A stretch of DNA of 42,761 nucleotides from Candidatus Aveggerthella stercoripullorum. GTDB lineage: Bacteria > Actinomycetota > Coriobacteriia > Coriobacteriales > Eggerthellaceae. The stretch lies in contig DVGB01000005.1 of the NCBI GenBank assembly GCA_018712955.1, forward strand, positions 1 through 42,761. The letters are read 5' to 3'. This document shows, in pieces, positions 587 to 39,400 of this stretch. Each line of letters begins with the position of its first letter. Positions within the stretch are counted from its first letter, which is position 1. The translations under genes were made by a program, and so were the position numbers. Below the pieces are notes generated by a model. It was not told the origin of the DNA and made no database searches. It saw only the letters and a program-made list of their open reading frames with translations.

Positions 587-2575
587 CTATGGCTCGATGA
601 TGGCAAAGTCGGGGGTAAACACCACCACATGCCCGCAGACAGCCTCCAGCAGGCCGGCCTCATCCTGAATTTCAGCCTGCGCTCTCACCGTTTCCGCGCT
701 GCCCTGGAGCAGGGCGAAGAGCGCGGCCTTGGGCATTCGCCAGACAGCGTCGGCATCGGCGGCCTGCACACCCTCCTGGTAGAGGAGCACCCCGGCGCGC
801 AGGGTGAGGACAAACTCCTCCCCGGTGTCGGTGACCACCAGGTTGACGGTGCCGTCGAGATCCTCCACCGCGCTGCTGTCCAGGCGGATACCCAGGTATT
901 CCAGCATCAAATCCACGCCCATCTTCCTCTGCACCTCACCGGAGCCGCTGGTGGGATTGGTGGTTACACCGTTCTGCCGCAGCTCCTGGGCACCGGTGAG
1001 ATAGGCGTTGCGCCAGGGGCCGGACTCTGCTTGATAACCCAGCTGCTCCAAGGCGTCGGCGCACAGGTAGCGGGCGTCCAGGTTCTCCGGGTCGGCGTAT
1101 ACCAGGGCGTTGGTGATCTGAGCTACCCACTGGTACTCCCCCTTTTCAAAGTCCGCCCGGGCCATCTCCAGCACTTTGTCCGTATCCCCCAGATATTCCA
1201 CCAGCTTCTGGGCGTATGCCGTGGGGGTCAGCTCGTCCAGGTGGATGGGATTGGCATCGTACCAGCCCATATACTTCTGATAGACCGCCTTTACATTATG
1301 CTTGAGGGTGCCGTAATACTGCCGTGTGTACCATACCTGCTCCAGGTCGGCAGGCAGCCGGATCATCTCGGCGATCTCGGTATCGGTATAGCCCTGGTTG
1401 ATATAGAACAGGGTCTGGTCGTGGATAAACTTATAGACCGCCGCCGTGTCCTCCATATACGCCCGGATCACGTCGTTGCCCCAATGGGGCCAGTTGTGGG
1501 ACTGAAACACTACCTGGGCCTCGTCCCCGTAGCGGGCCAGGGCCTCCATAATGTAGTTGGCCCAGGCGTTGCCGTCCCGCACCTGGGCGCCCCGGAGGGT
1601 ATACAGGTTGTGGAGGGTGCCGGTGCAGTTCTCGGCCAGCCACAGGGCTTTCTTTTCCGGCAGCCAGGTATTCATCTCAGCAGGGGCCTCGGTGCCGGGG
1701 GTCATCTGGAACTCAAAGGTCACCCCATCGATAACCCGGATCTCCCCCGTCTGGGTAATGGTATCAGTGGGAGAGAGATAGGAGATGGTGCCAGTGGACT
1801 GCCCCATACCGATGCCGATGCACATGGCTCCCTCCCCGTCCTTGTCCAGCAGAGTGCCGTACTGGTAAGCGGCCCGGCGGCCCATGGCGGTGCCGGCATA
1901 CACATTTTCGCTGATGGCGTGCTCCTCAAAGCCCTCAGGGGCAATGATGGGGATATTTTCTTCCGCCGCCTGCTCCTCGGAGATAATCCCCCGAATGCCG
2001 CCGAAGTGATCCACGTGGGAGTGGCTGATGATGACACCCATAACGGGGTACTCCCCCAACTGGCTGTCCACCAGCTCCATGGCGGCCTGGGCACACTCCA
2101 CCGACATGAGGGGGTCGAACACAATCCAGCCGGTATCGCCCTTGACAAAGGTAATATTGGACATGTCGTAGCCCCGCACCTGATAGATGCCGTCGGCCAC
2201 CTGAAACAGGCCGTAGATGTGGTTGAGCTGCGTGTTGCGCCACAGGCTAGGGTTAACGGTGTCGGGGGCAGAGGCGTCCTCCAGGAAGGCATAGGCGTCC
2301 TGGCTCCAGATCACCTTGCCGCTCTCGTCTTTGAGCTCCAGGAATTCCGGGGCACAGATCAGGCCTCTCTGGGCAAACTCCAGCTCCTGCTGGTCGTCAA
2401 AGTCCAGCTGGTCATAGACGCTCTGATTTATCTGGGCCGTAATTTCTGTAGCTCCCTTCTGCTCTGCGGTGAGCTCGGGCGCTCCTTCCTCCGCCGCCGG
2501 CGTCTCCTGACAGCCGGAGAGGAGGGAGACCGCAATGCCCGCCAAGCAGAGAAGCGCTATCCATCTCTTTTTCAT
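587..2575 (-). CDS. alkylsulfatase-type metallo-beta-lactamase lipoprotein
   Basis: The 662-aa product begins with a lipoprotein signal (KRWIALLCLAG, lipobox LLSGC) and so should be anchored outside the membrane. The metallo-beta-lactamase core carries the zinc motif SHSHVDHFGG at about residue 185, followed by WLAENCTGTLHNLYTLRGAQ and QSHNWPHWGN, which are typical of SdsA1/BDS1-type alkylsulfatases. A dimerisation segment (QKYMGWYDANP) and an SCP2-like C-terminal domain follow, so the full family architecture is present. That family hydrolyses sulfate esters such as dodecyl sulfate; the natural substrate here is unknown. The start is set by AGGAGGA seven bases upstream. It lies 21 bp downstream of the other lipoprotein gene, so the two probably share a transcript. 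Confidence 0.85.
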   Translation of the reverse strand: MKKRWIALLCLAGIAVSLLSGCQETPAAEEGAPELTAEQKGATEITAQINQSVYDQLDFDDQQELEFAQRGLICAPEFLELKDESGKVIWSQDAYAFLEDASAPDTVNPSLWRNTQLNHIYGLFQVADGIYQVRGYDMSNITFVKGDTGWIVFDPLMSVECAQAAMELVDSQLGEYPVMGVIISHSHVDHFGGIRGIISEEQAAEENIPIIAPEGFEEHAISENVYAGTAMGRRAAYQYGTLLDKDGEGAMCIGIGMGQSTGTISYLSPTDTITQTGEIRVIDGVTFEFQMTPGTEAPAEMNTWLPEKKALWLAENCTGTLHNLYTLRGAQVRDGNAWANYIMEALARYGDEAQVVFQSHNWPHWGNDVIRAYMEDTAAVYKFIHDQTLFYINQGYTDTEIAEMIRLPADLEQVWYTRQYYGTLKHNVKAVYQKYMGWYDANPIHLDELTPTAYAQKLVEYLGDTDKVLEMARADFEKGEYQWVAQITNALVYADPENLDARYLCADALEQLGYQAESGPWRNAYLTGAQELRQNGVTTNPTSGSGEVQRKMGVDLMLEYLGIRLDSSAVEDLDGTVNLVVTDTGEEFVLTLRAGVLLYQEGVQAADADAVWRMPKAALFALLQGSAETVRAQAEIQDEAGLLEAVCGHVVVFTPDFAIIEP

Positions 2576-2596
2576 CTCTGATTCCTCCTATCCCAT

Positions 2597-4639
2597 TCAG
2601 TCCTGCTTCCGGGCCAGCACCAGGGCGAAGCTCCCCTGGTACTCCCGCTCCGACCGGTCCAGCCCGCACCCGTCGGAGATGGCAAAGCGCAGCTCATAGA
2701 TCCCGGTCTCGTCCAGGGCCCGGCTCTTCTCCAGAGGCCGGCCGTCCTGTCCATACAGAGCCCAGGCTGCGGTCATCTCCCGCAGCTGGCCGGCCTGATC
2801 CTGATAGAACAGGGTGTAATTGTCCGGTCTGGCGGACAGACCGTTGAGACGCAGGGCCAAGGTCTCCTCCCCCCGCAGATTGTCTACCGTCACGTCCATC
2901 AGATAGCTTGCGGCCTGAAACCCATCAGGCAAGGCGCTGTCGTCCAGCCGGGAGCGGCCGGTGTTCTCTGCGGGGATCTCTCTGGCGGGACTCTGGGGCA
3001 GATAGGCAAACACATCCCGCCAGCACACCATCTCCATGGCGTTGGTGGGGCAGTAAAGGCCGTTGCCCGCCGGGTCGGCAATGAGGCCTACCGCCAGGTT
3101 GTTGTAGCCCGGCGCTGCAGACACGTCCGCCGTCAGCAGGGACTGGCCGGTGTCAAAGTCCAGCACCTCGTAGCGCCACATGCCGCTCTCCCCATCCTGC
3201 CAGTACCCGTAGAGATAGCCGGTGGCAGTACTCAGCTTGATCATGGCAGTCTCGCGGACGTCCGGCCGGGACCAGATCTTCTCCGCCGTATAGCCGCTGT
3301 CCGTCTTAATAAAATCCACCCGCTCCACACCGGGAGCAATAAAGGCGTTGCCCTGGGCCATCCAGTTAGCGTCATAGATATTGTCATAAGACTGGATAGC
3401 GGAGTCGGCGTCAGGGTCGGCCAGGCCGGCGTCGCCCGCTCCGAACCAGTTGGCTACGGTAACTGATACCGTACCCTCACCGCCGTCATAGACCAGGATG
3501 GAGTTCTCCACCGACACGGGCACCTCCTCTCCCAGATCATCCAGCACCGGGATCTGGGCCACAATCTCGCCGGTCTGAGAAGAGAGGGCCAGCAGGTTGA
3601 TGGGATCCAGGTTGTCGGTGAAGAGGATCAGATCCCCGGTCAGGGTGGGGGTGGTGCCGCTGCCCCAGGACAGGCCGCCGCCGGTGTAGCCGGAGCCCTC
3701 CCGGGCATCGTTGGCGCCGCCGCTTTCATAGGGGGTACGCCATGTCACCTGGACGCCGTCCTGCGCTGTCAGCATGTAGCAGGCCATATTGGTGAGGATC
3801 ACCGCCCCGTCCGGGTTGGCGGCAATGCCGTTTTCCGCCCCCTCCCCCTGGGCCAGAGGGTAGAAGAAGATATGGCCCTCCAGGGACACCTCCTCGCCTG
3901 TGTCCAGCTGCTGCATGTAGTCCCGGGAGATGTAGCCCAGAAATCCGGCGGGGTCCCGGCCGGGGTCAATGCGGAAGCCGCCGGTGGTGAACCACAGGTT
4001 GCCCTGGTAGTCGTACACCACACTCAGCAGCCGCTGGTCGATGTCCTCGCCCAGGGCTTTCACCGCCTGCTCCACGATGTCCACATCCATGACTTTTTCA
4101 AAGGTGGGCAGAACCCCGCCCTCCTCATCCATGGTGCGCAGCACCAGCAGATGGCCGTGGGAGGTGGGGGCCACAACCCGATCCGCCCAGTCCACGAAGG
4201 AGTAAGAGATCTGGAAGGAATAGCCGCCCCCATCATCCCGGGCAGGCACGAAGGAGCCGGCGCGGGTAATCACGTCCCCGTCCATGTCCGTAATGGAGAT
4301 ACCCCCCAGGAAGGGAGTAATGGCGTTGCCCCGGCTGTCATAAAAGGCGGCAGAGGGAGCGTGTATGTTCTGAGTCTCCAGGGAGACGGACACCTGGGAG
4401 CATATGCCCAGAGGAGCCGCCCCATCGGTGACGTCAGTGGCGTATACGTCGTTGTGGATAGAGTTGTCGCTGTCCGCCATATAGGGGTTGGCCGACACAT
4501 CCTTCACCGGAAGGGGGCGGGGAATCAGGGCGGCGGGCCTTTCGGCTTCCGTCTGATCATCCATTGGGGCGGCACAGCCCGCCAGAAGGCCCAGGGTAAG
4601 CAGTGCGGCGCAGCCCAAAAACAGCACCTGTTTCATCAT
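2597..4639 (-). CDS. large lipoprotein of unknown function, possible beta-propeller
   Basis: The 680-aa protein has a clear lipoprotein signal (VLFLGCAALLTLGLLAGCA). I do not recognise a named family. The body contains recurring short blocks typical of blade-repeat proteins, for example DYQGNLWFTTGGF, NPDGAVILTNMACYML, TLTGDLILFTDNLDP and TATGYLYGYWQDG. These suggest a beta-propeller that reads or binds a ligand at the cell surface; this is inference. GGGAGGG precedes the start, and two ATGs are adjacent (4639 and 4636). The alkylsulfatase-type gene follows after 21 bp on the same strand, so the product may serve in sulfated-compound capture or processing. No catalytic motif is visible. Confidence 0.7.
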   Translation of the reverse strand: MMKQVLFLGCAALLTLGLLAGCAAPMDDQTEAERPAALIPRPLPVKDVSANPYMADSDNSIHNDVYATDVTDGAAPLGICSQVSVSLETQNIHAPSAAFYDSRGNAITPFLGGISITDMDGDVITRAGSFVPARDDGGGYSFQISYSFVDWADRVVAPTSHGHLLVLRTMDEEGGVLPTFEKVMDVDIVEQAVKALGEDIDQRLLSVVYDYQGNLWFTTGGFRIDPGRDPAGFLGYISRDYMQQLDTGEEVSLEGHIFFYPLAQGEGAENGIAANPDGAVILTNMACYMLTAQDGVQVTWRTPYESGGANDAREGSGYTGGGLSWGSGTTPTLTGDLILFTDNLDPINLLALSSQTGEIVAQIPVLDDLGEEVPVSVENSILVYDGGEGTVSVTVANWFGAGDAGLADPDADSAIQSYDNIYDANWMAQGNAFIAPGVERVDFIKTDSGYTAEKIWSRPDVRETAMIKLSTATGYLYGYWQDGESGMWRYEVLDFDTGQSLLTADVSAAPGYNNLAVGLIADPAGNGLYCPTNAMEMVCWRDVFAYLPQSPAREIPAENTGRSRLDDSALPDGFQAASYLMDVTVDNLRGEETLALRLNGLSARPDNYTLFYQDQAGQLREMTAAWALYGQDGRPLEKSRALDETGIYELRFAISDGCGLDRSEREYQGSFALVLARKQD

Positions 4640-4822: not shown

Positions 4823-5185
4823 TCAACCGCCCCGCCTGTTCCGGGCAAAGAGGAATTCCTCCCAGGCCCGCCGGGCCTTGCCCATCAGCTCCCGGCGGAT
4901 GGGGATGTTTTTGCCGTCAGCCATGACAAAGCACCGCAGGTCGGCGTCCATGTGTCCCACAAAGGCCAGGTGGGCCAGAAAGCTCTTGTGGGTCTGAAAA
5001 AAGGGCTGACCGGTCAGCCGCTGAGCCACAGCGGAAACCTTCTCATAGGCGGTCTTGACTGTCCCGTCCTTCAGATGGATGTTCACCACATGACCCTGCT
5101 GCTCCAGGTAAAAGATGTCGGAGACAGGAATTTCCTCCCGCACCCCGCCGCGCTGGATGGTAAGGGCGGGGTGGATTGGCAACAC
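4823..5185 (-). CDS. LytTR DNA-binding domain fragment (response regulator cut by IS)
   Basis: About 115 native residues remain of a LytTR-family transcription factor. The core GGVREEIPVSDIFYLEQQGH, HLKDGTVKTAYEKVSAV and FFQTHKSFLAHLAFV is the beta-rich LytTR DNA-binding domain. Complete relatives have an N-terminal receiver domain, which is absent. The first five codons (down to 5171) come from the insertion-sequence end, so the ATG at 5185 is fortuitous. The gene is leftward like the two lipoprotein genes downstream, which makes it a candidate former regulator of them. The fragment probably has no native promoter and is likely non-functional in signal reception. Confidence 0.75.
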   Translation of the reverse strand: MLPIHPALTIQRGGVREEIPVSDIFYLEQQGHVVNIHLKDGTVKTAYEKVSAVAQRLTGQPFFQTHKSFLAHLAFVGHMDADLRCFVMADGKNIPIRRELMGKARRAWEEFLFARNRRGG

Positions 5186-6079
5186 TTATTTGGACGGTTT
5201 CGACAGGATCAGCCCCGCCTTCCTGAACTCGACGGGGCTCATGTAGCCGAGCGTCGAGCGGATCCTGAAGTTGTTGTGCCAGTGCACGCAGTCGGACAGC
5301 TTGGCCTGCAGGTCGCGGAGGTCGGAGAAGCCGTCCCTGTAGGCCAGCTCCGCCTTGAGGACCTTGTTCGTCGACTCGTCGGCCGCGTTGTCGTAGGGGC
5401 AGCCCTTGGCGGAGAGCGACCGCTCGATGCCGAACGCCTCGAGCATGAGGCCGATCTCGGCGTTGTCGAGCTCGCTGCCGCGGTCGGTGCGGGAGACCTC
5501 GATGTCCGGGATCGGGAACTCCAGGGTCGCGAAGGCCGCCTTGACGAGCTTCGCCCCCTTGCTGCTTCCCGCCGAGCGGCCGACGACCTCCCTGCTGCAG
5601 AGGTCGACGGGCAGGCGGACGCAGCGCCAGGAGCCGCCGGCGCGCACGCAGGCGAGGTCGCTGCGGACGTGCGTGCGCGGCGCGCGCCCGTCGAAGGGCC
5701 GGCCGAGCACGCTCGGCAGCTCCGCCTCGTTCGGCTTGCCCGGGCGCGCCTTGAAGCGCTTCCTCCCGTGCGCGCTCGAGAGGCCGTCCTCCCTCATGAC
5801 GCGGGATATCCGCCTGCGGCTCGCGACGACGCCGCGCCGCTCGAGCGGCGCTTTGGCCTTCCTCGCGCCGTGCCCGCCCTTGCCCTCCGCACGGACGGCG
5901 GGAGCGTCGGGCTCGACGGGGTCCGGCGCGGGCGGGGGCTCCGGGCGCGGGCGGGGGCAGTGGTAGGTCGAGCGCGGCACGCCGAGGATCTCGCACTGCG
6001 CCGATGCCGGGCAGCGGTCGGCGTTGGCCGCTATCGCCGTCGCTTTCGCGCGAACATCGGCGCCGCTTGCTTTAGGACG
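5186..6079 (-). CDS. IS3-family transposase OrfB (integrase core)
   Basis: This is the catalytic half of the IS3 transposase. It shows the short helical segment CEILGVPRSTYHC, then an rve-type core with RSDLACVRAGGSWRCVRLPVDL (first Asp), SRTDRGSELDNAEI (second Asp), CPYDNAADESTNKVLKAEL (Glu) and the usual tail WHNNFRIRSTLGYMSPVEF. The catalytic D-D-E set therefore appears intact. No ATG, GTG or TTG codon lies in this frame near the orfA overlap, so the product should arise as an OrfAB fusion by -1 frameshifting. Candidate slip positions are the AAAG runs just before the orfA stop. The upstream limit given is the approximate start of the overlap. The stop TAA is at 5186-5188, inside the left terminal repeat. 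Confidence 0.8.
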   Translation of the reverse strand, partial: RPKASGADVRAKATAIAANADRCPASAQCEILGVPRSTYHCPRPRPEPPPAPDPVEPDAPAVRAEGKGGHGARKAKAPLERRGVVASRRRISRVMREDGLSSAHGRKRFKARPGKPNEAELPSVLGRPFDGRAPRTHVRSDLACVRAGGSWRCVRLPVDLCSREVVGRSAGSSKGAKLVKAAFATLEFPIPDIEVSRTDRGSELDNAEIGLMLEAFGIERSLSAKGCPYDNAADESTNKVLKAELAYRDGFSDLRDLQAKLSDCVHWHNNFRIRSTLGYMSPVEFRKAGLILSKPSK

Positions 6080-6327
6080 CCGACCTCCATGCGGAGCCCC
6101 TTGCTCTCGCGCTCCAGCTCGATGACCCTGCTCTGCTCGGGCGTCCTGTTGTCGGCGGCGTGCGGCGAGCCGGCGGCGTCGATGGAGTCGATCCGCCTTC
6201 GCAGCGTCGTGCTCCCGAGATCGTGCTCGCGCATGATCTCGCTTGGCGGCTTCCCTGCGCTGTAGAGCGACGCAATCTGCCTCTTGAGCTCGTCGGTGAA
6301 ATGCCTCGGGCGCTTTGGGTCGGCCAT
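6031..6327 (-). CDS. IS3-family transposase OrfA (helix-turn-helix)
   Basis: The 98-residue OrfA starts at ATG 6327 behind GGAGG. It contains the helix-turn-helix FTDELKRQIASLYSAGKPPS with EIMREHDLGSTTLRRRI, which binds the terminal repeats. A leucine-zipper-like stretch follows (SRVIELERESKGLRMEVGVLKQA) and in the family mediates multimerisation. It overlaps OrfB in the -1 frame by roughly 50 bases, the standard IS3 arrangement for making OrfA alone as regulator and OrfAB as transposase. There are no internal stops or frameshifts, so the element may still be active. Confidence 0.85.
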   Translation of the reverse strand: MADPKRPRHFTDELKRQIASLYSAGKPPSEIMREHDLGSTTLRRRIDSIDAAGSPHAADNRTPEQSRVIELERESKGLRMEVGVLKQAAPMFARKRRR

Positions 6328-6384
6328 CCGAGCCTCCTTCCGCAGGCCCTCGTGAAACTGTCCAACCTGGTGTAGCCAATCCAC

Positions 6385-24688: not shown

Positions 24689-25504
24689 ATGAAGAATCGG
24701 CAAGTGGCGAACGCTGACCGTTGTGGTAGCAGTCACGACGAGAGAGCGGGCGGTGAACCGTGCGAAGCTGTTGCCGCCGTCGCTGAAGGCGGGCGGAACG
24801 AGCGGCGTGTCGAAGGGGGGGTGCGCGCTGCCGGGAAAGAAGGCATTTGCGACGCTGAAACGGTGCCTGTTCGGCCATGGACCGTATACCTTATAGGCGG
24901 CATCGGCTCGGGCAAGTCCAGCGTGGTGGCACGCTTGCGCGAATGGGGCGTTCCGGTGTGCGATCTGGACGAGACGGGGCATCGAGCATTGTGCCTGCCG
25001 GAAGTGAAGGACGCTTTGCGGCGTGCATTCGGTGCGTGCGTATTTGACGAGTGTGGGGATGTAGTGCGTCGTGCGCTCGCCCGGGAGGCGTTTGCCACTC
25101 CTGAGGGGACGGCAACGCTGAATCGCATCACGACGAAGTCCATCGTGAAGCTGCTTGACGAATGGCTTGCGCGCCAGGCGGCGCTCGCTGCTCGCCGGGG
25201 CGATAGCGCGCCTGTCTGCGTGGTGGAGGTTTCCGCCTACGATGGACCGAACGGGAGATTTCCTGACCCAGACGAGATACTGGCGGTCGTCGCTCCGCTG
25301 GAGGCGCGCATCGAGCGTGCGATGACAAACGGCTTTGAGGAAAAGGACGTGCGCGCGCGCATTGCACGACAGCCGCTTGACAGCGAACGGCGTGCATGGG
25401 CGGACGCGGTCATCGAGAACGATGGCGATATGGCGCAGTTGCATGCAGCGGTCGACGCGTGGTGGCTTTCGCATTCTCGGAATGCCTGCCCTGCGACCTC
25501 GTAA
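24689..25504 (+). CDS. coaE: dephospho-CoA kinase with N-terminal extension
   Basis: The 271-aa product contains a CoaE core from about residue 64: P-loop VYLIGGIGSGKSSVV, VCDLDETGH, RALAREAFATPEGTATLNRI, the lid and base-sensing block MTNGFEEKDVRARIARQPL, and ADAVIENDGD. CoaE performs the last step of coenzyme A synthesis. Several positions depart from the family norm: the motif usually beginning G-x-T-G-S-G-K has Ile for Thr, and the usual LLFE is VSAYDG. The first 60 residues are a charged, Gly/Glu-rich extension absent from typical 200-aa CoaE. A GTG at 24865 would remove it, but the upstream ATG, 8 bp after lysC, has GGGTGG before it. I keep the longer form with caution about the start. 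Confidence 0.8.
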   Translation: MKNRQVANADRCGSSHDERAGGEPCEAVAAVAEGGRNERRVEGGVRAAGKEGICDAETVPVRPWTVYLIGGIGSGKSSVVARLREWGVPVCDLDETGHRALCLPEVKDALRRAFGACVFDECGDVVRRALAREAFATPEGTATLNRITTKSIVKLLDEWLARQAALAARRGDSAPVCVVEVSAYDGPNGRFPDPDEILAVVAPLEARIERAMTNGFEEKDVRARIARQPLDSERRAWADAVIENDGDMAQLHAAVDAWWLSHSRNACPATS

Positions 25505-30976: not shown

Positions 30977-31288
30977 ATGCCCGCCAACGTCGCGGGGGTG
31001 CGCAAGACTCGGCGCTCGATGACGTTCGCTGTGGCTCCGCCGTGGCGGCTTTGACTGCTTCTAGCATCGCACGGTTATGCATTTCCGCAGTTCAGCCATG
31101 GTCATCCGCGCGATTTCGCACGAAACGGGTGAAGCGTTCGCACCGTGCGGGGGAACCCCCTTATCGCGCGTGCGCGTACTCTATCCCGGGCAAAATGCTT
31201 TCGTTCTTTCGCGCTCGTTCGAGACGGCGCGAGCCGAATACGAGAGGCGGCAAACCGGACGAAAGCGCGATGCAAGAAAGGGGAAATC

Positions 31289-31960
31289 ATGGAGGAGAAA
31301 ACGACGCAGACATCCGAAGGCGCCGCGAAGTCGCCGAAGCGGAAGAAGCCTCTCATCATCGCCGTCGTGGCCGTCGCGGTGCTTGTGGTCGCAGGCGCAG
31401 GCATGTGGGTTTGGCATGAGCAGCCGAGCTTCTGTGGCGCTATCTGCCACACGCCGATGACCGAATACGTCGCGACCTACGACCAGGAAGAGGGACAGCC
31501 TGGCACCGACAAATACGGCAACACGGTGGAGAACACTTCCGGCATGCTCGCGGTGACGCACAAAGCCGAAGGCGAAGACTGCCTGTCCTGCCACATCCCG
31601 ACGCTGGGCGAGCAGGTTACCGAAGGCATGAATTGGGTGAGCGGCAACTACCAGTTCCCGCTTGAGGAGCGCACCGCTTCCGATCTGACCGAAGCGCGCG
31701 GCGTGGACCAGGACCAGTTCTGCCTGAACGGCGACTGCCATGACGTGACCAACCGCGAAGAGCTGCTCGAGGCCACGTCCGACATCGAATTCAACCCGCA
31801 TGAGACCCAGCACGGCGAGATGGCATGCACCGACTGCCACAAAGCCCATCGCCCGTCCGTCATGATCTGCGCGCAGTGCCATGACGACGAGGCGGAGGTT
31901 CCCGAGGGATGGGTTACCTACGACGAGTCCCTGGAAGTTCTGCCGGGGAACAACGCGTAA
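31289..31960 (+). CDS. membrane-anchored multiheme cytochrome c
   Basis: The 223-aa protein has one N-terminal transmembrane anchor (about residues 20-41) and an outward heme domain. Three canonical heme motifs are present (CLSCH at 98, CTDCH at 180, CAQCH at 194). Two more have longer spacings, CGAICH at 49 (CX3CH, followed by a possible Met ligand in HTPM) and CLNGDCH at 145 (CX4CH), for up to five hemes. This is like the NapC/NirT and cytochrome c3-type quinol-linked donors common in Eggerthellaceae. It probably passes electrons from menaquinol to the flavoprotein encoded 47 bp downstream. The start at 31289 follows AAAGGGG. Confidence 0.88.
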   Translation: MEEKTTQTSEGAAKSPKRKKPLIIAVVAVAVLVVAGAGMWVWHEQPSFCGAICHTPMTEYVATYDQEEGQPGTDKYGNTVENTSGMLAVTHKAEGEDCLSCHIPTLGEQVTEGMNWVSGNYQFPLEERTASDLTEARGVDQDQFCLNGDCHDVTNREELLEATSDIEFNPHETQHGEMACTDCHKAHRPSVMICAQCHDDEAEVPEGWVTYDESLEVLPGNNA

Positions 31961-32007
31961 GGTCGGAAGGTTTGCAGCTTTTGCTGCTTGAAAGCGAGGC
32001 ATAGACA

Positions 32008-33513
32008 ATGGCTGAAAACTACAATCGCGGCAACGTGGTCGTGAATCGCCGTTCGTTCGTCAAAGGCGCGTTCGGCGCGGGCATGCTGGGAATGCTTTCC
32101 TTGGCGGGTCTGACCGGCTGCGCTCCGAAAAGCGAGCAGAGCTCCGATATCGACGGCGGCACGTTCGATATCGTCGTCATCGGCGCGGGCGGCGCAGGCA
32201 TGACCGCTGCCATCAGCTCCCATGATGCGGGCGCAAAGGTCATCCTGCTCGAGAAGATGTCCGTTGCGGGCGGCAACACCGTATGCGCTGAGGGCGGCAT
32301 GAACGCCTGCTGCACGAAGGTGCAGGCGGAAGAGGGCATCGAGGACAGCGTGGAACTGTTCGCCAACGACACGTTCGTCGGCGGCCACAATCTGGGCAAC
32401 ATGGACCTGATCAACTTCATGTGCGAGAACTCCAATGCGGCGCTTGAGCGCCTGTCTGAGCGCGGCATGTACCTGACGCGCCTTTCCACCTCCGGCGGCG
32501 CGTCTGTCAAGCGCATCCATCGTCCTGAAGATGGCAGCGCGGTCGGCGCGTACCTGGTCCGCCATATGTGCGAGCGTTGTGCCGAACGCGGCATCGAGGC
32601 GGTAACCCAGATGGACGTCAAGGAGATCGTGACGGACGAGTCCGGCGCAGTCGCCGGTGTGCGCGCCGTGAATCTGCGCACGGGCGCATCCACCCTGTTC
32701 AATGCGAAGGCCGTTATTCTGGCGGCGGGCGGTTTCGGCGCGAACCATCAAATGCTCGCGCAGTACCGTCCCGAATTGCTCGAGGCGGTCACCACGAACC
32801 ATCCGGGCGCCACGGGTGACGGCATCATGATGGCCGAGGCCATTGGCGCGGGCCTGGTGGACATCGAGCAAATCCAGGTGCACCCGACGGTCGAGCAGTC
32901 CACTTCTATCCTGCTCTCCGAGGGCATTCGCGGTGACGGTGCCATCCTCGTGAACTCCGAGGGCAACCGCTTCACCAACGAGCTGCTCACCCGCGACGTG
33001 GTCTCTGCGAACGAATGGGCGCAGCCGGGCGGCTGGGCGTACGCCATCTTCGACCATGAGGTCTACGAGGCCAACACCTCGATCGAGAACAAGTTCGTGA
33101 AGCGCGACCTGGTAGTCATCGCCGACACGCTCGAGGAGCTTTCCCAGAACATCGAGGTCAATCCCGAGAACTTCATGGCTGCGCTTACCGCGTACAACGA
33201 CGCCATCGCCAACAACCAGCCCGACCCGATGGGCCGCGAAAAGAGCCGTTACCCCATCGTGAACGCCCCGTTCTATGCGGTGAAGGTGGCTCCGGGTATT
33301 CATCACACCATGGGCGGCGTCCGCATCAACACGAAGGCTGAGGTCCTCACGGACGAGGGCGAGGTTATTCCCGGCCTGTACGCAGCGGGCGAGGTTACGG
33401 GCGGTATCCATGGCGGCAACCGTCTCGGCGGCAACGCAATCTGCGACATCAACGTCTTCGGACACCGCGCTGCCGAAAGCGCCGTGGAGTACGTGGGCGT
33501 TTCCGCGTCGTAG
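32008..33513 (+). CDS. Tat-exported FAD-dependent fumarate-reductase-type flavoprotein
   Basis: The 501-aa protein has a twin-arginine signal (VNRRSFVKGAFGAGML) that also carries a lipobox-like LTGCA. The FAD-binding fold follows (FDIVVIGAGGAGMTAAISSH, LLEKMSVAGGNTVCAEGGMNA). Active-site blocks match fumarate reductases of the flavocytochrome c type: IQVHPT (H292), GIRGDGAILVNSEGNRFTNEL (R308, the likely proton-donor arginine), APGIHHTMGGVRINTKA (H432/433) and GGIHGGNRLGGNAI (R472). Gut Coriobacteriia use this superfamily with many acceptors (fumarate, urocanate, plant and drug enoates), so the substrate is open. It pairs with the heme protein just upstream. GAAAGCGAGG lies near the start. 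Confidence 0.92.
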   Translation: MAENYNRGNVVVNRRSFVKGAFGAGMLGMLSLAGLTGCAPKSEQSSDIDGGTFDIVVIGAGGAGMTAAISSHDAGAKVILLEKMSVAGGNTVCAEGGMNACCTKVQAEEGIEDSVELFANDTFVGGHNLGNMDLINFMCENSNAALERLSERGMYLTRLSTSGGASVKRIHRPEDGSAVGAYLVRHMCERCAERGIEAVTQMDVKEIVTDESGAVAGVRAVNLRTGASTLFNAKAVILAAGGFGANHQMLAQYRPELLEAVTTNHPGATGDGIMMAEAIGAGLVDIEQIQVHPTVEQSTSILLSEGIRGDGAILVNSEGNRFTNELLTRDVVSANEWAQPGGWAYAIFDHEVYEANTSIENKFVKRDLVVIADTLEELSQNIEVNPENFMAALTAYNDAIANNQPDPMGREKSRYPIVNAPFYAVKVAPGIHHTMGGVRINTKAEVLTDEGEVIPGLYAAGEVTGGIHGGNRLGGNAICDINVFGHRAAESAVEYVGVSAS

Positions 33514-33611
33514 CCTGCTGAGGCTCAGGGAGAGAGCCGTTCGTAAGGGCCGCGAGCGCACGAGGCTGCATGCAGCTGCGTTTCGCCTGCACGTCGGCCC
33601 TTGTTCTGCAC

Positions 33612-33644
33612 AAGCGTCCATGCCGTTGCGGCATGGACGCTTTT
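33612..33644 (+). terminator. terminator of the cytochrome-flavoprotein operon
   Basis: AAGCGTCCATGCC (33612-33624) pairs with GGCATGGACGCTT (33630-33642) around 5 nt and is followed by TTTT. It separates the reductase operon from the regulator gene. Confidence 0.93.
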
Positions 33645-33678
33645 CCTCGTTGAAGGAGCTGTTGTGTTTTTTCGAAGC

Positions 33679-33687
33679 TGGTATAGT
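33679..33687 (+). promoter_or_regulatory. extended -10 promoter of the LuxR regulator
   Basis: TGGTATAGT is an extended -10 (TG, one base, TATAGT at 33682-33687), 37 bp before the GTG start. A CTGTTG at 33659 could be a weak -35 with a 17-bp spacer. Confidence 0.5.
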
Positions 33688-33723
33688 GTCCCGAGGGGTT
33701 GGTCGCAGGTAGGGGAGGAACGC

Positions 33724-35484
33724 GTGACCGCTGGTCAGAGCCATAAAGCATGCGAGCAGAGCGTCGCGTCGTACCTGCGCGGTCTTCTCCCGTCGTTTTC
33801 GCTGTACTTTCTGGGCCTGCTTGCAGTCCGCGTGTGGTTGCAAAGCGCCGTCTACGACCGGTATCTTTCCACGGACGCGGGGTTCATCACGGTCGCTTCG
33901 AACGTGATCCGTGTGGTGTTCATTGCCATCCTGCTTGCTGTTGCGGTGCGTCAAGACTTCCCAGAGCGCAGGCTCAGTGCGCTTGCGGTTGTTTCCGTCG
34001 TTTCCATGACTGCCGCGAGCGTGCTGTTCCTTTTCGAGCTGGAGACCGGCATCACCTGGCTTATGTGGCCCGCATGCCTTCTTGCGGGCTTTGGCATCAT
34101 CTGGGGTGGCGGCATGTGGATGCGCTTTTACGAGCGCCTTCGGCCGGGAGAGTCGTTGTTCTGTCTGTTCCTTTCTCTTGCGGGCAGTTGTGTCATCGGG
34201 TTTTTCTTGGGGCTCATTCCAGAGAACGTGACTCATCTTGTCGGCATTCTGATGCCAGTGACCTCGCTTTTTGCCTACCAGCGCGCCCTATCGGCACTTG
34301 ACGAGCGGGATGGGAAGATGGCTGACGCGCAAACTTGCACGCCGTCCTCTTGCTACGACAAGGAGCCGCGCTCGACGTTCGTGCGCCTTGTCGTGGGCGT
34401 GGCGCTGTTCAACCTGGCGCTTGGCCTGGCGCGCGGCTTTCCGCACGGCGACGCAATCCCGCTCCCGGTTGCCTACCAGTTTGCGCATCAGTTCGGTACG
34501 TGCCTGCTGTTCCTGCTTGTTGTTTGGTGGGCGCTCGTTAAAAGGCGCGGCGTGCGCTTTTCGACTCTCTGGATCATTTCGATCTCGTTCATCATCGTCG
34601 GCGTGCTGCTGCTTTCCTTCGCAGACCCGAATCTTATGGCGTCGGGCGCGACGTTCATTTCCATTGCGAACACCTTCACGCTTGGGGTGCTGTGGTACTG
34701 CAGCTACGACATCGGCCGTCATCTGAGCATTCCCGCCTATGCCGTGTTGGGTGTTGCATGGATCGCCCACCTGTTGCCTCGCGAGATTGGCAGGAGCGCC
34801 ATTTGGCTTATCGGCCCGAGCGACCACCTAACTGTCGTCGTGATGGTGGCCATGGTGGTGCTGATTGCGGTGAGCATCGGCTTTATTATGAACGATTCCA
34901 TTCCTACGTTGCGCCCGTTCTTCGCCGAGCTGAACGGCATGCGTGCGCCAGCCGTCTCATCTGAGGAGGTCTTTGTTCCGGTCGGCGTGTCGGATTCGAC
35001 CAGCTCGGCGCTTGAAACGACGACGCGCGAAGACACGGACGGACAGGAGGCAGCCCTGTCGGCTGAAGGATTGCCTCGCATGGAAGCATGCAAGGACGAA
35101 GGGACGGGAGCATCGCATGCTGCCGGACTTTCGGCAGACATGCGCGTTCCTGCCCCTGTGAAAACAGGCGGGGACAAAACGCCTTGCGATGCTGTTGCGA
35201 CGCTCAAGGCTCCTCTTCCGACCGAAAGCAAGGAGGACCGCGCGTTTGCGCTGTTGCGCGAGCGTCATTTCCTTACGGACCGCGAGGTCGAGGTCGCGCG
35301 CCTCATGGCGCAGGGCAGGAGCAAGGCTGCGATTGCGGGTAAGCTCTTTTTGTCGGAGAACACGGTGCGCACCCACGCGCGCAACCTGTACGCGAAGCTG
35401 GACGTCCATAATCGCCAGGAGCTGTTGGACGCTATCGAGTCTGCATGCGAGGCGTGCGCAGAGGACGAACCGCCGACCGCTTGA
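33724..35484 (+). CDS. LuxR-family regulator with multi-TM sensor domain
   Basis: The 586-aa protein starts at GTG 33724 behind AGGGGAGGAA. Residues 1 to about 400 form roughly twelve hydrophobic helices (for example SFSLYFLGLLAVRVWLQS, WLMWPACLLAGFGIIWGGGM, LTVVVMVAMVVLIAVSIGF). A low-complexity cytoplasmic linker of about 110 residues follows, then a LuxR helix-turn-helix at the C-terminus (LTDREVEVARLMAQGRSKAA, KLFLSENTVRTHARNLYAKLDVHNRQELLDAI). Proteins of this layout are abundant in Eggerthellaceae, where they often flank respiratory reductase genes. It probably senses a substrate or electron-flow signal in the membrane and controls the adjacent cytochrome-flavoprotein genes. The signal is unknown. 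Confidence 0.9.
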   Translation: MTAGQSHKACEQSVASYLRGLLPSFSLYFLGLLAVRVWLQSAVYDRYLSTDAGFITVASNVIRVVFIAILLAVAVRQDFPERRLSALAVVSVVSMTAASVLFLFELETGITWLMWPACLLAGFGIIWGGGMWMRFYERLRPGESLFCLFLSLAGSCVIGFFLGLIPENVTHLVGILMPVTSLFAYQRALSALDERDGKMADAQTCTPSSCYDKEPRSTFVRLVVGVALFNLALGLARGFPHGDAIPLPVAYQFAHQFGTCLLFLLVVWWALVKRRGVRFSTLWIISISFIIVGVLLLSFADPNLMASGATFISIANTFTLGVLWYCSYDIGRHLSIPAYAVLGVAWIAHLLPREIGRSAIWLIGPSDHLTVVVMVAMVVLIAVSIGFIMNDSIPTLRPFFAELNGMRAPAVSSEEVFVPVGVSDSTSSALETTTREDTDGQEAALSAEGLPRMEACKDEGTGASHAAGLSADMRVPAPVKTGGDKTPCDAVATLKAPLPTESKEDRAFALLRERHFLTDREVEVARLMAQGRSKAAIAGKLFLSENTVRTHARNLYAKLDVHNRQELLDAIESACEACAEDEPPTA

Positions 35485-35705
35485 TTTCCAGCGCGTTTCG
35501 TCCTGTCCGCAAGCGGCCTCGCGAAAGGTGCCAGCGGACAGTGCTGCGCCGTTTTCCCGCATTCACCCTGTACGAAAAGAAAGCGAAATCTGCGCGAATA
35601 GAATGCTGCCGAACAGGCGCCCGGCGTCTTGGCCTATGCTGCGTGCGGTTTTGCCGTCGCAGCTTCGGGGCGCTGCCGTTTTCGAGCAGACGAGGAGTTG
35701 CGCGC

Positions 35706-37538
35706 ATGTGCGGTATCGTAGGGTGCACCGGTAGCATGCCGGTGAAAAAGGTGCTGGTCGAAGGGCTGAAGCGGCTTGAATACCGCGGATACGACTCCGC
35801 GGGCGTCGCCATTCAGCAGGACGGCGCGCTTGAAGTGGTGCATCGCGTGGGCAAAGTCGCCGGCCTGGAAAGCGAGCTTGCCTGTCGCGACCTTAGGGGT
35901 ACGTGCGGCATTGGACATACGCGCTGGGCGACGCACGGCCGTCCTTCCACGGTGAACGCCCATCCCCATGCTTCCTGCGATGGGCGCATAGCCGTCGTGC
36001 ACAACGGCATCATCGAGAACTTTGCCGAATTGCGCGAGCAGCTGCAGGCGCGCGGCCATGTCTTCGCGAGCGAAACCGACACGGAAGTCCTGGCGCACCT
36101 GCTGGAAGAAGCCTACGCCGAATGTCCGGGCGACTTGCTGACGGCACTGCGCCGTGCGCTGCAGCACGTTATTGGCGCATACGGCGTTGCTGCGGTCTGC
36201 GCGGACGAGCCAGGCGTCATCGCGTGCGCGCGAAAAGACTCGCCCATTGTGGTGGGCCGCGGAAAGGACGCTTCCTACGTTGCCTCAGACATCATTGCGC
36301 TTATTGACGCTACGCGCGATGTCGTCGTGCTCGAGGATGGCCAGCTTGCGCGCTTGACTCCCGAAAGCATTACGTACTTCGACGAGCGCGGTCGCGAAAT
36401 CGAGCCGGAGATCACCCATGTCGACTGGGATGTCGACCTGGCGGAAAAAGGCGGCTATCCCGACTTCATGCTCAAGGAAATCCACGAGCAGCCGCGCGTT
36501 GTGCGCGATACGCTGGCGGGACGCATGGTGGGAGGCGAGCTGTCCATCGACGAGCTGGGGCTTTCCTACGAAGAGCTTAACCTGATCGACCGCGTTTACG
36601 TTATTGCGTGCGGCACGAGCTACCACGCGGGGCTTATCGCGAAAAACCTTATCGAACGGTGGGCGCGTATCCCAACGGAGGTCGAGGTCGCGAGCGAATT
36701 CCGCTATCGCAACCCCATCATCACCCCCTCTACGCTCGTGGTGGCGGTTTCCCAGTCTGGCGAGACGGCCGACACGCTGGCCGCCATTCGCGATGCGCGC
36801 ATTCGCGGCGCGAAGGTCTTCGGCATCACGAACGTGGTAGGAAGCCCGGTGGCGCGCGAATCCGATGGCGTTATCTACACGAAAGCGAACAAAGAGATTG
36901 CCGTCGCGTCCACGAAGTCGTTTTTGGGCCAGGTCGTGAGCCTTACCTTGCTGGCGTTGCTGCTTGCGCAGACGAAGGGCCGGTTGACCACCGCGCAGGT
37001 GCGCCTGCTCTTCCGCGAGCTGGGCGACACGGCGGAGCAGATTGAGCGCATCCTGCACGACACTGAAGCGATAGACGAGGCGGCTTATGCGTGCAAGGAT
37101 GCTGCGAGCGCACTGTTTGTCGGACGTGGCATCGGGTCTGCTATCTGCTATGAGGGCGCGCTCAAGCTCAAAGAGATCAGCTACCTGCATGCCGAGGCCT
37201 ATGCTGCCGGCGAAATGAAGCATGGGCCCATTGCGCTGATCGACGACGGTTTCCCGGTCATTGCCGTGGCGACCGAAAGCCCTGTGTACGACAAGCTGGT
37301 CTCGAACTTGAAAGAGTGCGAAGCCCGCGGTGCGCTCATCGTCGCCATTGCGACGGAAGGGGACGAAGAGATCAAAAAGATCGCCCGGCATGTCATCTAC
37401 GTTCCCAAAGTGCGCGACTGTTTCACGCCCATTACCGCAAGCGTTCCCTTGCAGCTGTTCGCTCGTGCTATCGCGCTTTTGCGCGGATGCGACGTCGACC
37501 AGCCGCGCAACCTCGCGAAAAGCGTCACGGTCGAGTAG
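35706..37538 (+). CDS. glmS: glutamine-fructose-6-phosphate aminotransferase (isomerizing)
   Basis: The 610-aa enzyme makes glucosamine-6-phosphate for peptidoglycan. The glutaminase domain begins with the catalytic Cys2 (MCGIVGCTGSMPVKKVLVEGLKRLEYRGYDSAG) and has GHTRWATHGRP and HNGIIENFAELREQL. Two SIS domains follow (YVIACGTSYHAGLIAKNLIE, VAVSQSGETADTLAAIRDAR, ASTKSFLGQVVSLTLL, ALFVGRGIGSAICYEGALKLKEISYLHAEAYAAGEMKHGPIALI), and it ends DQPRNLAKSVTVE, the invariant C-terminus. The length is normal. GAGGAG precedes the start. No glmS ribozyme is visible in the 221-bp upstream gap; a TAGAAT at 35599 could be a -10. Confidence 0.97.
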   Translation: MCGIVGCTGSMPVKKVLVEGLKRLEYRGYDSAGVAIQQDGALEVVHRVGKVAGLESELACRDLRGTCGIGHTRWATHGRPSTVNAHPHASCDGRIAVVHNGIIENFAELREQLQARGHVFASETDTEVLAHLLEEAYAECPGDLLTALRRALQHVIGAYGVAAVCADEPGVIACARKDSPIVVGRGKDASYVASDIIALIDATRDVVVLEDGQLARLTPESITYFDERGREIEPEITHVDWDVDLAEKGGYPDFMLKEIHEQPRVVRDTLAGRMVGGELSIDELGLSYEELNLIDRVYVIACGTSYHAGLIAKNLIERWARIPTEVEVASEFRYRNPIITPSTLVVAVSQSGETADTLAAIRDARIRGAKVFGITNVVGSPVARESDGVIYTKANKEIAVASTKSFLGQVVSLTLLALLLAQTKGRLTTAQVRLLFRELGDTAEQIERILHDTEAIDEAAYACKDAASALFVGRGIGSAICYEGALKLKEISYLHAEAYAAGEMKHGPIALIDDGFPVIAVATESPVYDKLVSNLKECEARGALIVAIATEGDEEIKKIARHVIYVPKVRDCFTPITASVPLQLFARAIALLRGCDVDQPRNLAKSVTVE

Positions 37539-37769: not shown

Positions 37770-38375
37770 ATGGCGCGGGCGACGAGCAAGGAAAAGGCCG
37801 AAGCATTGCTGGCAAGCGTGTCGGCGGGAGTCGACGGCACGGTAGGGTCCGGCGTGTCCATCGTGAAGGTGGCCCGCATGAAAGCCGTGCTCAGTCGCAC
37901 GCCTTCGTTTGCGCGCAAGGTGTTCTCGGCGGAAGAGCGCGCATTCTGCGAACGTCATGCGCTTCCTGAAGTTCCGTTCGCCCTGCGTTTCGCCGCGAAA
38001 TCGGCTGTCGCCCGCGCACTCGGTATCGAGCGGGAAGACGGTATGGGCGTGCGCGATGTGGAGGTTCGTTTGAGTTCAAAGGGCCGTCCTTTCGTCGTTC
38101 TCTCGGGAGCGGCACGACGTTTTGCGCAGGAGCAGGGTGTCGTCGATCTGCCCCTTTCGCTCTCGTTCACGCACACCGATGCCGTCGCATGCGCGCTTGC
38201 CATCACGCGCGATTCGCAGCGTGCGGCTGCAGAGCGCATCGACCAGAAGCAAGAGCTTGCCCGCCAGTTCAAAGAGGCGCGAGCGTTGCTGGACGAAATG
38301 GGCGGATCGGCTGAGCAGAAGGAAGAGGATGCCGTGCGCGCGCAAAGCGAGGCTCCCGGCGAAAACGAAGGGTAG
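37770..38375 (+). CDS. AcpS-like protein lacking the usual metal-binding acids
   Basis: The 201-aa protein resembles holo-[acyl-carrier-protein] synthase, which attaches phosphopantetheine to ACP. Recognisable blocks are GSGVSIVKVARMKAVL, FARKVFSAEERAFCERH, LRFAAKSAVARALG, GVRDVEVRLSSKGRPFVVLSG and LSLSFTHTDAVACALAI. The family's magnesium ligands are an Asp in G-x-D-I-V and a Glu in A-x-K-E-A. Here both are Ser (GVSIV and AAKSA), and the next acidic residue (usually IVEIAR) is Lys. The protein is also longer than the usual 120-130 aa at both ends. Activity is doubtful. Start 37770 follows AGGAAGG; an ATG at 37737 overlaps a TACAAT that may be the -10. nnrD follows after 89 bp. Confidence 0.75.
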   Translation: MARATSKEKAEALLASVSAGVDGTVGSGVSIVKVARMKAVLSRTPSFARKVFSAEERAFCERHALPEVPFALRFAAKSAVARALGIEREDGMGVRDVEVRLSSKGRPFVVLSGAARRFAQEQGVVDLPLSLSFTHTDAVACALAITRDSQRAAAERIDQKQELARQFKEARALLDEMGGSAEQKEEDAVRAQSEAPGENEG

Positions 38376-38464: not shown

Positions 38465-39400
38465 ATGAAGCAATACGGACCGGTCGAACTGGCGGATTTG
38501 CTGCCGTTTCCTGACCCGCTCTGCCACAAGTATTCGCGCGGTAAGCTCACGCTGCTCGTGGGCTCCGCCACGTATCCAGGCGCCGCCAGCCTGGCTGCCC
38601 TGGCCAGCCAGCGTGCAGGCGCGGGGTATACGGCGGTCTACACCGAAGGGTCCATCGTGCATCAAGTGCAGGCGTACCAGCCCTCGCTTGTCGTGCGTTC
38701 GTGGTCGGATTGGGACACGCAGTACGTGGCCGCGTCCGAGCCCGACCGTCCGTGCGCTTATCTGGTGGGCAGCGGTTTCGATGACTTGGACACGTACACA
38801 TCCCAGCTTACCCGTCGGCTCCTGAAGTCCGCCGACGCGCCGGTGCTGGTGGACGGCGGTGCGCTCAACATCCTGTCTGCGAAGAAGATTCGCGATCTGA
38901 CCGCGCAGCGTTATCGGCGCGGGCAAACGACCATCGTCACGCCCCATATGGGCGAAGCGGCCCGCCTGGCGAAGATATTCAACCTCAAGACGACCGAACC
39001 TGACGAAATGGCATTGCAGCTTGCGCAGGCGTACGGTGTGATCTGCGTCCTGAAAAGCCATGACACGTTCATTTCCGACGGCCAGGAAATCCTTGCCATG
39101 CGCGAGGGCACGGCCGCGCTTGCGAAAGCGGGCACGGGCGACGTGCTGGCGGGCATCATCGGCGGTCTTTTGGCGCAGGGCATGGACGCGGTCGATGCCT
39201 GCGTGCTCGGCACGACGCTCCATGCGCGTGCGGGCGTTTTCGCGTCGGACGACCTGACGGAAATCTGCGTGTGCGCAGAAGACATCATCCGCTATCTGCC
39301 CCATGCCATCAAAAGCCTGATCAAAGGAAAGCAGGAAGAGCAAGTGGGGGAGATCACCGAGAGCTTCGGCCCGGACGTGACGGGGACATGGAGCTTGTAA
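38465..39400 (+). CDS. nnrD: ADP-dependent NAD(P)H-hydrate dehydratase
   Basis: The 311-aa protein is the YjeF C-terminal/ribokinase-like enzyme that repairs hydrated NADH and NADPH. KLTLLVGSATYPGAASLAALASQRAGAG, LVGSGFDD, LVDGGALNILS, TIVTPHMGEAARLAKIF, CVLKSHDTFISDG and the anion-hole/catalytic GTAALAKAGTGDVLAGIIGGLLAQGMDAVDAC are typical. The epimerase domain NnrE, often fused at the N-terminus, is absent. AGGAGG lies nine bases before ATG 38465. A GC hairpin CGAGCGGG/CCCGCTCG (38426-38447) immediately precedes that site and could affect translation. The AcpS-like gene upstream is a common neighbour of this family. Confidence 0.92.
   Translation: MKQYGPVELADLLPFPDPLCHKYSRGKLTLLVGSATYPGAASLAALASQRAGAGYTAVYTEGSIVHQVQAYQPSLVVRSWSDWDTQYVAASEPDRPCAYLVGSGFDDLDTYTSQLTRRLLKSADAPVLVDGGALNILSAKKIRDLTAQRYRRGQTTIVTPHMGEAARLAKIFNLKTTEPDEMALQLAQAYGVICVLKSHDTFISDGQEILAMREGTAALAKAGTGDVLAGIIGGLLAQGMDAVDACVLGTTLHARAGVFASDDLTEICVCAEDIIRYLPHAIKSLIKGKQEEQVGEITESFGPDVTGTWSL

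Follow-up and report, generated by a model that had tools for sequence, protein, structure and literature searches.

The gene acpS1, carried by a 42,761-nucleotide stretch of DNA from Candidatus Aveggerthella stercoripullorum, a member of a genus of gut bacteria (the whole of which is called the window hereafter), appears to encode a natural pseudoenzyme, and to be neither a broken gene nor a new kind of catalyst. AcpS, the holo-ACP synthase, is a group I PPTase required for lipid synthesis; it is as a rule essential and also serves as a drug target. The reading that we favour, and hold with moderate confidence, is that this essential enzyme was displaced and that the old AcpS persists without catalytic activity, as a pseudoenzyme that probably binds ACP. 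An annotation based on profiles only would label acpS1 a holo-ACP synthase.

The frame of acpS1 runs uninterrupted on the forward strand from the ATG at 37770 to the stop codon ending at 38375 and encodes 201 aa, so that the intact reading frame reported in the initial annotation is confirmed. Upstream, on the same strand, lies glmS (35445-37538), assigned by tblastn synteny in relatives; the listed open reading frame starts at 35445 and similarity to the relatives is found only from about 35700. Downstream, also on the forward strand, lies nnrD, encoding the NAD(P)H-hydrate dehydratase (38465-39400), identified by synteny and by the TIGR00196 profile (170 bits for a cut-off of 130). In most Eggerthellaceae genomes compared by tblastn, acpS likewise lies between glmS and nnrD (glmS-acpS-nnrD). 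The acpS1 product passes the Pfam ACPS profile PF01648 (37.6 bits, cut-off 25) and TIGR00556 (60.4 bits, cut-off 45.35). With the equivalog profile TIGR00516 (cut-off 59.8), the AcpS1 of the window fails with 55.3 bits and the copy of Ca. Aveggerthella excrementigallinarum (G001) passes with 63.0 bits. In the tree, AcpS1 branches on a long stem within the clade formed by the AcpS of Eggerthellaceae. This position, together with the glmS-nnrD locus, makes AcpS1 orthologous to the catalytic enzyme rather than a stray paralogue. It shares with the Coriobacteriia AcpS encoded at glmS-acpS-nnrD, a family with about 50-67% identity, the same locus, the same fold, an N-terminal extension and a C-terminal helix. 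It differs from these orthologues by a serine at both Mg ligands and by the loss of Arg101 and Thr86, to which the window copy adds the loss of Lys82. The initial annotation had singled out a protein about 70 residues longer than usual; since the N-terminal extension and the C-terminal helix are also found in the intact relatives, these extra residues are a property of the class and nothing special to AcpS1.

Other open reading frames of the window were identified by eye. A coaE-like frame (dephospho-CoA kinase, the final step of CoA synthesis) lies at 24689-25504 and shares the window with the CoA-dependent AcpS, probably by coincidence. At 31145-35484, frames resembling a multihaem cytochrome, a FAD-dependent fumarate reductase and a LuxR-type membrane regulator follow each other, a pattern familiar in Eggerthellaceae respiratory operons. 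On the minus strand, at 5043-6379 and 587-4639, an IS3-type transposase-like frame stands beside frames resembling an alkyl-sulfatase-like metallo-hydrolase and one more lipoprotein of the secreted type. The contig may be foreign or mobile at this end.

The replacement of both metal ligands by serine was borne out. In AcpS1, the GxDIVEI motif has become GVSIVKV and the FAxKEA motif (FAAKEA) has become FAAKSA. According to the alignment, Ser30 (codon TCC, 37857-37859, forward strand) replaces the Mg-binding Asp (Asp8 in B. subtilis, Asp9 in E. coli) and Ser78 (codon TCG, 38001-38003, forward strand) replaces the Mg-binding Glu (Glu58 in B. subtilis). The genus was sampled with three genomes, namely that of the window, G001 and an uncultured Coriobacteriia bacterium (G002), all of which are fragmented drafts and at least two of which are metagenome-derived according to their titles. 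All three encode Ser at both positions, which are Asp and Glu, respectively, in 54 out of 54 intact family members. A scan of the genome collection, run with the alignment as query and with a pattern that accepted Ser as well as Asp at the position of the first ligand, returned 80 loci, with Asp in 78 and Glu in 78; the other two, both Ser/Ser, are those of G001 and G002. The losses are thus specific to the genus and predate its species. A copy with Asp and Glu restored in the same genus, which the initial annotation had named as the observation that would speak against its reading, was not encountered. Each of the two serine codons differs from those of the original residue by at least two base changes and is present in two other species, which excludes a sequencing error.

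The changes extend beyond the two metal ligands. Among the 54 intact Eggerthellaceae AcpS, 54 core positions are conserved at 95% or more, and nine of them are altered in all three Aveggerthella: Leu27, which is near the metal-ligand Asp, Asp30, Ile34, Tyr59, His69, Glu78, Thr86, Phe88 and Arg101. Position 101, an Arg in every intact member (54/54), is Leu in the three Aveggerthella (window codon 38070-38072, forward strand) and is aligned with Asn81 of B. anthracis AcpS, which contacts the 3'-phosphate of CoA (PMC3447402). Thr86 belongs, by our alignment, to the loop whose Gly contacts adenine (PMC3447402). Two further losses are found in the window copy alone: Gly87 is changed into Glu, and the general-acid Lys82 (Lys62) is replaced by Arg (codon 38013-38015, forward strand, by alignment), Lys being kept in G001 and G002. 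The initial annotation had also pointed to a Lys in place of a neighbouring acidic residue. Lys33 is indeed present in the window (codon AAG, 37866-37868), but it is not diagnostic because position 33 varies among intact enzymes: some relatives whose Asp/Glu pair is preserved have D, Q, S or K there; within the genus it is restricted to the window, both congeners having Glu. It was therefore dropped from the meaningful changes.

We then considered whether acpS1 is under selection. Its frame is intact in the three species. The dN/dS ratios calculated on the core and tail were 0.141 (0.083-0.230), 0.122 (0.068-0.199) and 0.124 (0.039-0.262) for the three pairs, of which those involving the window are partly saturated at synonymous sites (pS 0.55-0.61), so that an unsaturated ratio comes only from the pair of congeners (dS 0.26), with a wide interval. 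No bootstrap value exceeded 0.40. By comparison, the ratio was 0.139 for acpS2, the second AcpS gene described below, about 0.04 for nnrD and about 0.07 for glmS; its median over 881 pairs of intact AcpS of the family, obtained with the same measure, was 0.24. Neither of the features by which a pseudogene is recognised, a broken frame or the lack of purifying selection, was found. We thus conclude with high confidence that acpS1 is retained by selection. The distance of the genus to the intact members, expressed relative to the family mean, was 1.67-fold for the AcpS core, 1.14-fold for GlmS and 1.12-fold for NnrD. A fast genus stem combined with low dN/dS ratios corresponds to a single burst of change after which constraint set in again, the course to be expected of a protein that takes on a different role.

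The clear acceleration on the genus stem would also be produced by a decaying relic, that is an acpS1 drifting since AcpS2 took over, bound to be lost and still open by chance only. The window copy, having lost Lys82 and Gly87 in addition to what its congeners lost, even matches what continuing erosion would give. Such a relic is nevertheless unlikely: the frame has stayed intact in three species in spite of a synonymous divergence of the congeners from the window of about 1 or above, the protein is held no more loosely than intact AcpS pairs are, and the tail motif is unaltered.

The second AcpS was found by searching the whole genome of the window with the Pfam ACPS profile, which covers both the AcpS and the Sfp types. 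Exactly two matches scored above the cut-off, acpS1 and one other, acpS2 (contig C40, 28156-28542), which rules out acpS1 as the only copy of the genome. A search for a second AcpS or Sfp-type transferase had been suggested by the initial annotation, according to which the variant must work if no other AcpS exists. This argument falls away, since acpS2 encodes intact Asp and Glu ligands within the motifs GIGIDTVEI and FAVKEA. In G002, a genome 98% complete, acpS2 is present in the same neighbourhood, as judged by synteny. In G001, the contig breaks off within the flanking gene, shortly before the place expected for acpS2, so that the lack of the gene there is explained by the assembly. From its intact motifs and conserved position, AcpS2 is very probably the working enzyme.

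AcpS2 shares about 33% identity with AcpS1, lies outside the Coriobacteriia AcpS clade in the tree and lacks the C-terminal tail of the class. The identity and the separate place in the tree rule out a recent duplication as the origin of acpS2. No close donor was found among 396 genomes of the phylum, where the best matches reached about 43%, and the search for a plasmid or phage origin yielded no phage match and a single weak match to a plasmid, with 35% identity. AcpS2 groups, on long branches and with uncertainty, with the second AcpS of an Eggerthellaceae genome (G023, L054:5929-6318), which is itself intact. Both proteins belong to the AcpS family and, unlike AcpS1, have kept the Asp and the Glu; they form a separate lineage devoid of the class tail and encoded away from the glmS-nnrD locus. 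By eye, the G023 gene is near genes resembling butyrate/acetate kinase and phosphotransacylase genes.

Pairs made of an enzyme and a pseudoenzyme are common, and the two proteins could function together as hetero-trimers, AcpS2 ensuring catalysis and AcpS1 supplying ACP docking or the tail that AcpS2 lacks. AcpS is a trimer with active sites at the subunit interfaces (PMC3447402), which would suit such an assembly. An identity as low as that between AcpS1 and AcpS2, and the loss from AcpS1 of residues of the CoA pocket, make these mixed oligomers quite unlikely. Displacement of the old enzyme, with AcpS1 kept as a pseudoenzyme, remains the reading that we prefer.

AcpS1 itself is in all likelihood catalytically dead, judging from its sequence and by analogy with mutated homologues. 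With both metal ligands and part of the CoA site lost, it is most safely read as having lost catalysis. The non-catalytic protein envisaged in the initial annotation gains support, and the regulatory function proposed there is possible. In the human PPTase, replacing Asp129 by Ala or Glu181 by Ala or Gln decreased kcat by 3 orders of magnitude and the efficiency by about 4 orders, while the Km for CoA was hardly altered (PMC2148441). As these single mutants (D129A, E181A and E181Q), changed at positions equivalent to those lost in AcpS1, are nearly dead, AcpS1 with its two serines should be inactive; the human protein differs in being a group II enzyme with single changes made in vitro (PMC2148441). 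The E. coli AcpS D9A mutant in complex with CoA (PDB 5xuh) carries an engineered loss of the same Asp; it is a laboratory point mutant with an intact Glu and CoA site, whereas AcpS1 is a natural double loss accompanied by further changes. The G001 and G002 copies, which retain Lys82, might conceivably keep some residual activity. A literature search of limited reach retrieved no publication on a natural AcpS pseudoenzyme, which is weak evidence.

Loss of the ligands could in principle be compensated if AcpS1 were still a transferase working by another mechanism, with the metal held by other groups or by the phosphates and water alone. The candidate groups are Glu89 and the adjacent Asp90, which lie in the loop that follows what was once the GTG motif. 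Glu89 is the sole genus-specific conserved acid of the core, being present in the three Aveggerthella at a position acidic in 2% of the intact relatives. The retention of Lys82 in two of the three Aveggerthella points in the same direction, and some ACP-related enzymes tolerate the loss of residues assigned as catalytic, as reported for FabG without its triad (PMC7973133). Another mechanism is nonetheless very unlikely, as single losses already cost the human enzyme about 10^4 in efficiency where AcpS1 has both ligands gone, Arg101 and Thr86 of the CoA site are lost as well, an intact AcpS2 removes the need for it, and the Glu89-Asp90 pair would, by the alignment, come after the Gly-Thr-Gly loop, close to where adenine is bound and away from the metal.

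The features kept by AcpS1 are those of the fold, of ACP docking and of the tail. The alignment-based AlphaFold2 model reached a pLDDT of 86.9, a confidence partly borrowed from the mostly intact homologues on which the model is built; the single-sequence prediction was poor (pLDDT of 53.8). The best PDB match of the model was the AcpS structure 3qmn (Z-score of 21.2, 124 residues at 1.4 Å), followed by 5xuh (Z-score of 20.3). These matches span residues 23-146 and the tail helix falls outside. Arg36 of AcpS1 is invariant in the family and corresponds to Arg14 of B. subtilis, the ACP-docking Arg. In the complex of L. plantarum AcpS with DltC1, Arg15, conserved in B. subtilis, docks the carrier Asp beside the reactive Ser (PMC9338922). 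The C-terminal helix, defined from the alignment and modelled as a helix, comprises residues 150-177 (QRAAAERIDQKQELARQFKEARALLDEM, 38217-38300, forward strand). It is common to the Coriobacteriia AcpS (relatives L092-L163), with the pattern R..P.EELA.QFKEAR.LLDE, and absent from the E. coli and B. subtilis enzymes. Seven of its positions are conserved at 95% or more in the intact members (Arg156, Leu163, Phe167, Lys168, Arg171, Leu174 and Asp175), several of them being as invariant as catalytic ones, and all seven are retained in the three Aveggerthella.

These observations can be arranged into a scenario of displacement. In an ancestor of Ca. Aveggerthella, the distantly related AcpS2 would have taken over the 4'-phosphopantetheinylation of ACP, as its intact motifs and conserved position suggest. 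The AcpS of the glmS-nnrD locus, as its sequence shows, no longer has the Mg2+ ligands and has lost part of the CoA site; these changes would have come after the takeover and, by analogy with the measured mutants, should have abolished transfer. Purifying selection has kept the protein together with its fold, its docking Arg and the C-terminal helix of the class. Finally, AcpS1 may bind ACP, or a partner through the C-terminal helix, and thereby serve to buffer ACP or AcpS2, to present it or to regulate it; this is the weakest step. With an AcpS swapped and the dead original kept, retention is very unlikely to be due to phosphopantetheinyl transfer, and the loss of the metal and CoA features with preservation of the docking and tail features favours binding. 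A role in binding ACP or a partner is accordingly plausible at somewhat below even odds, the ACP-binding idea resting mainly on the single docking Arg and on overall conservation. More tentatively, the old AcpS could be a dedicated non-catalytic ACP-binder, serving as regulator, buffer or partner of AcpS2 and acting through its docking face and C-terminal helix; AcpS would then have, throughout the class, a second job that outlives catalysis. Aveggerthella would provide a clean separation of AcpS functions, in which the possible non-catalytic role of AcpS and the meaning of the helix become directly testable.

Two ACP genes, both with an intact DSL motif, were found in each of the three Aveggerthella genomes. 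The number of ACP genes varies within the family and no link between the second ACP and acpS1 was inferred. The two genes were located at C71:18602-18796 (L173) and C18:15835-16029 (L174) in G000. By eye, one Aveggerthella ACP gene belongs to a FAS cluster, comprising a MarR-like gene, acp, an enoyl reductase gene, fabD, fabG and fabF, and the other is solitary.
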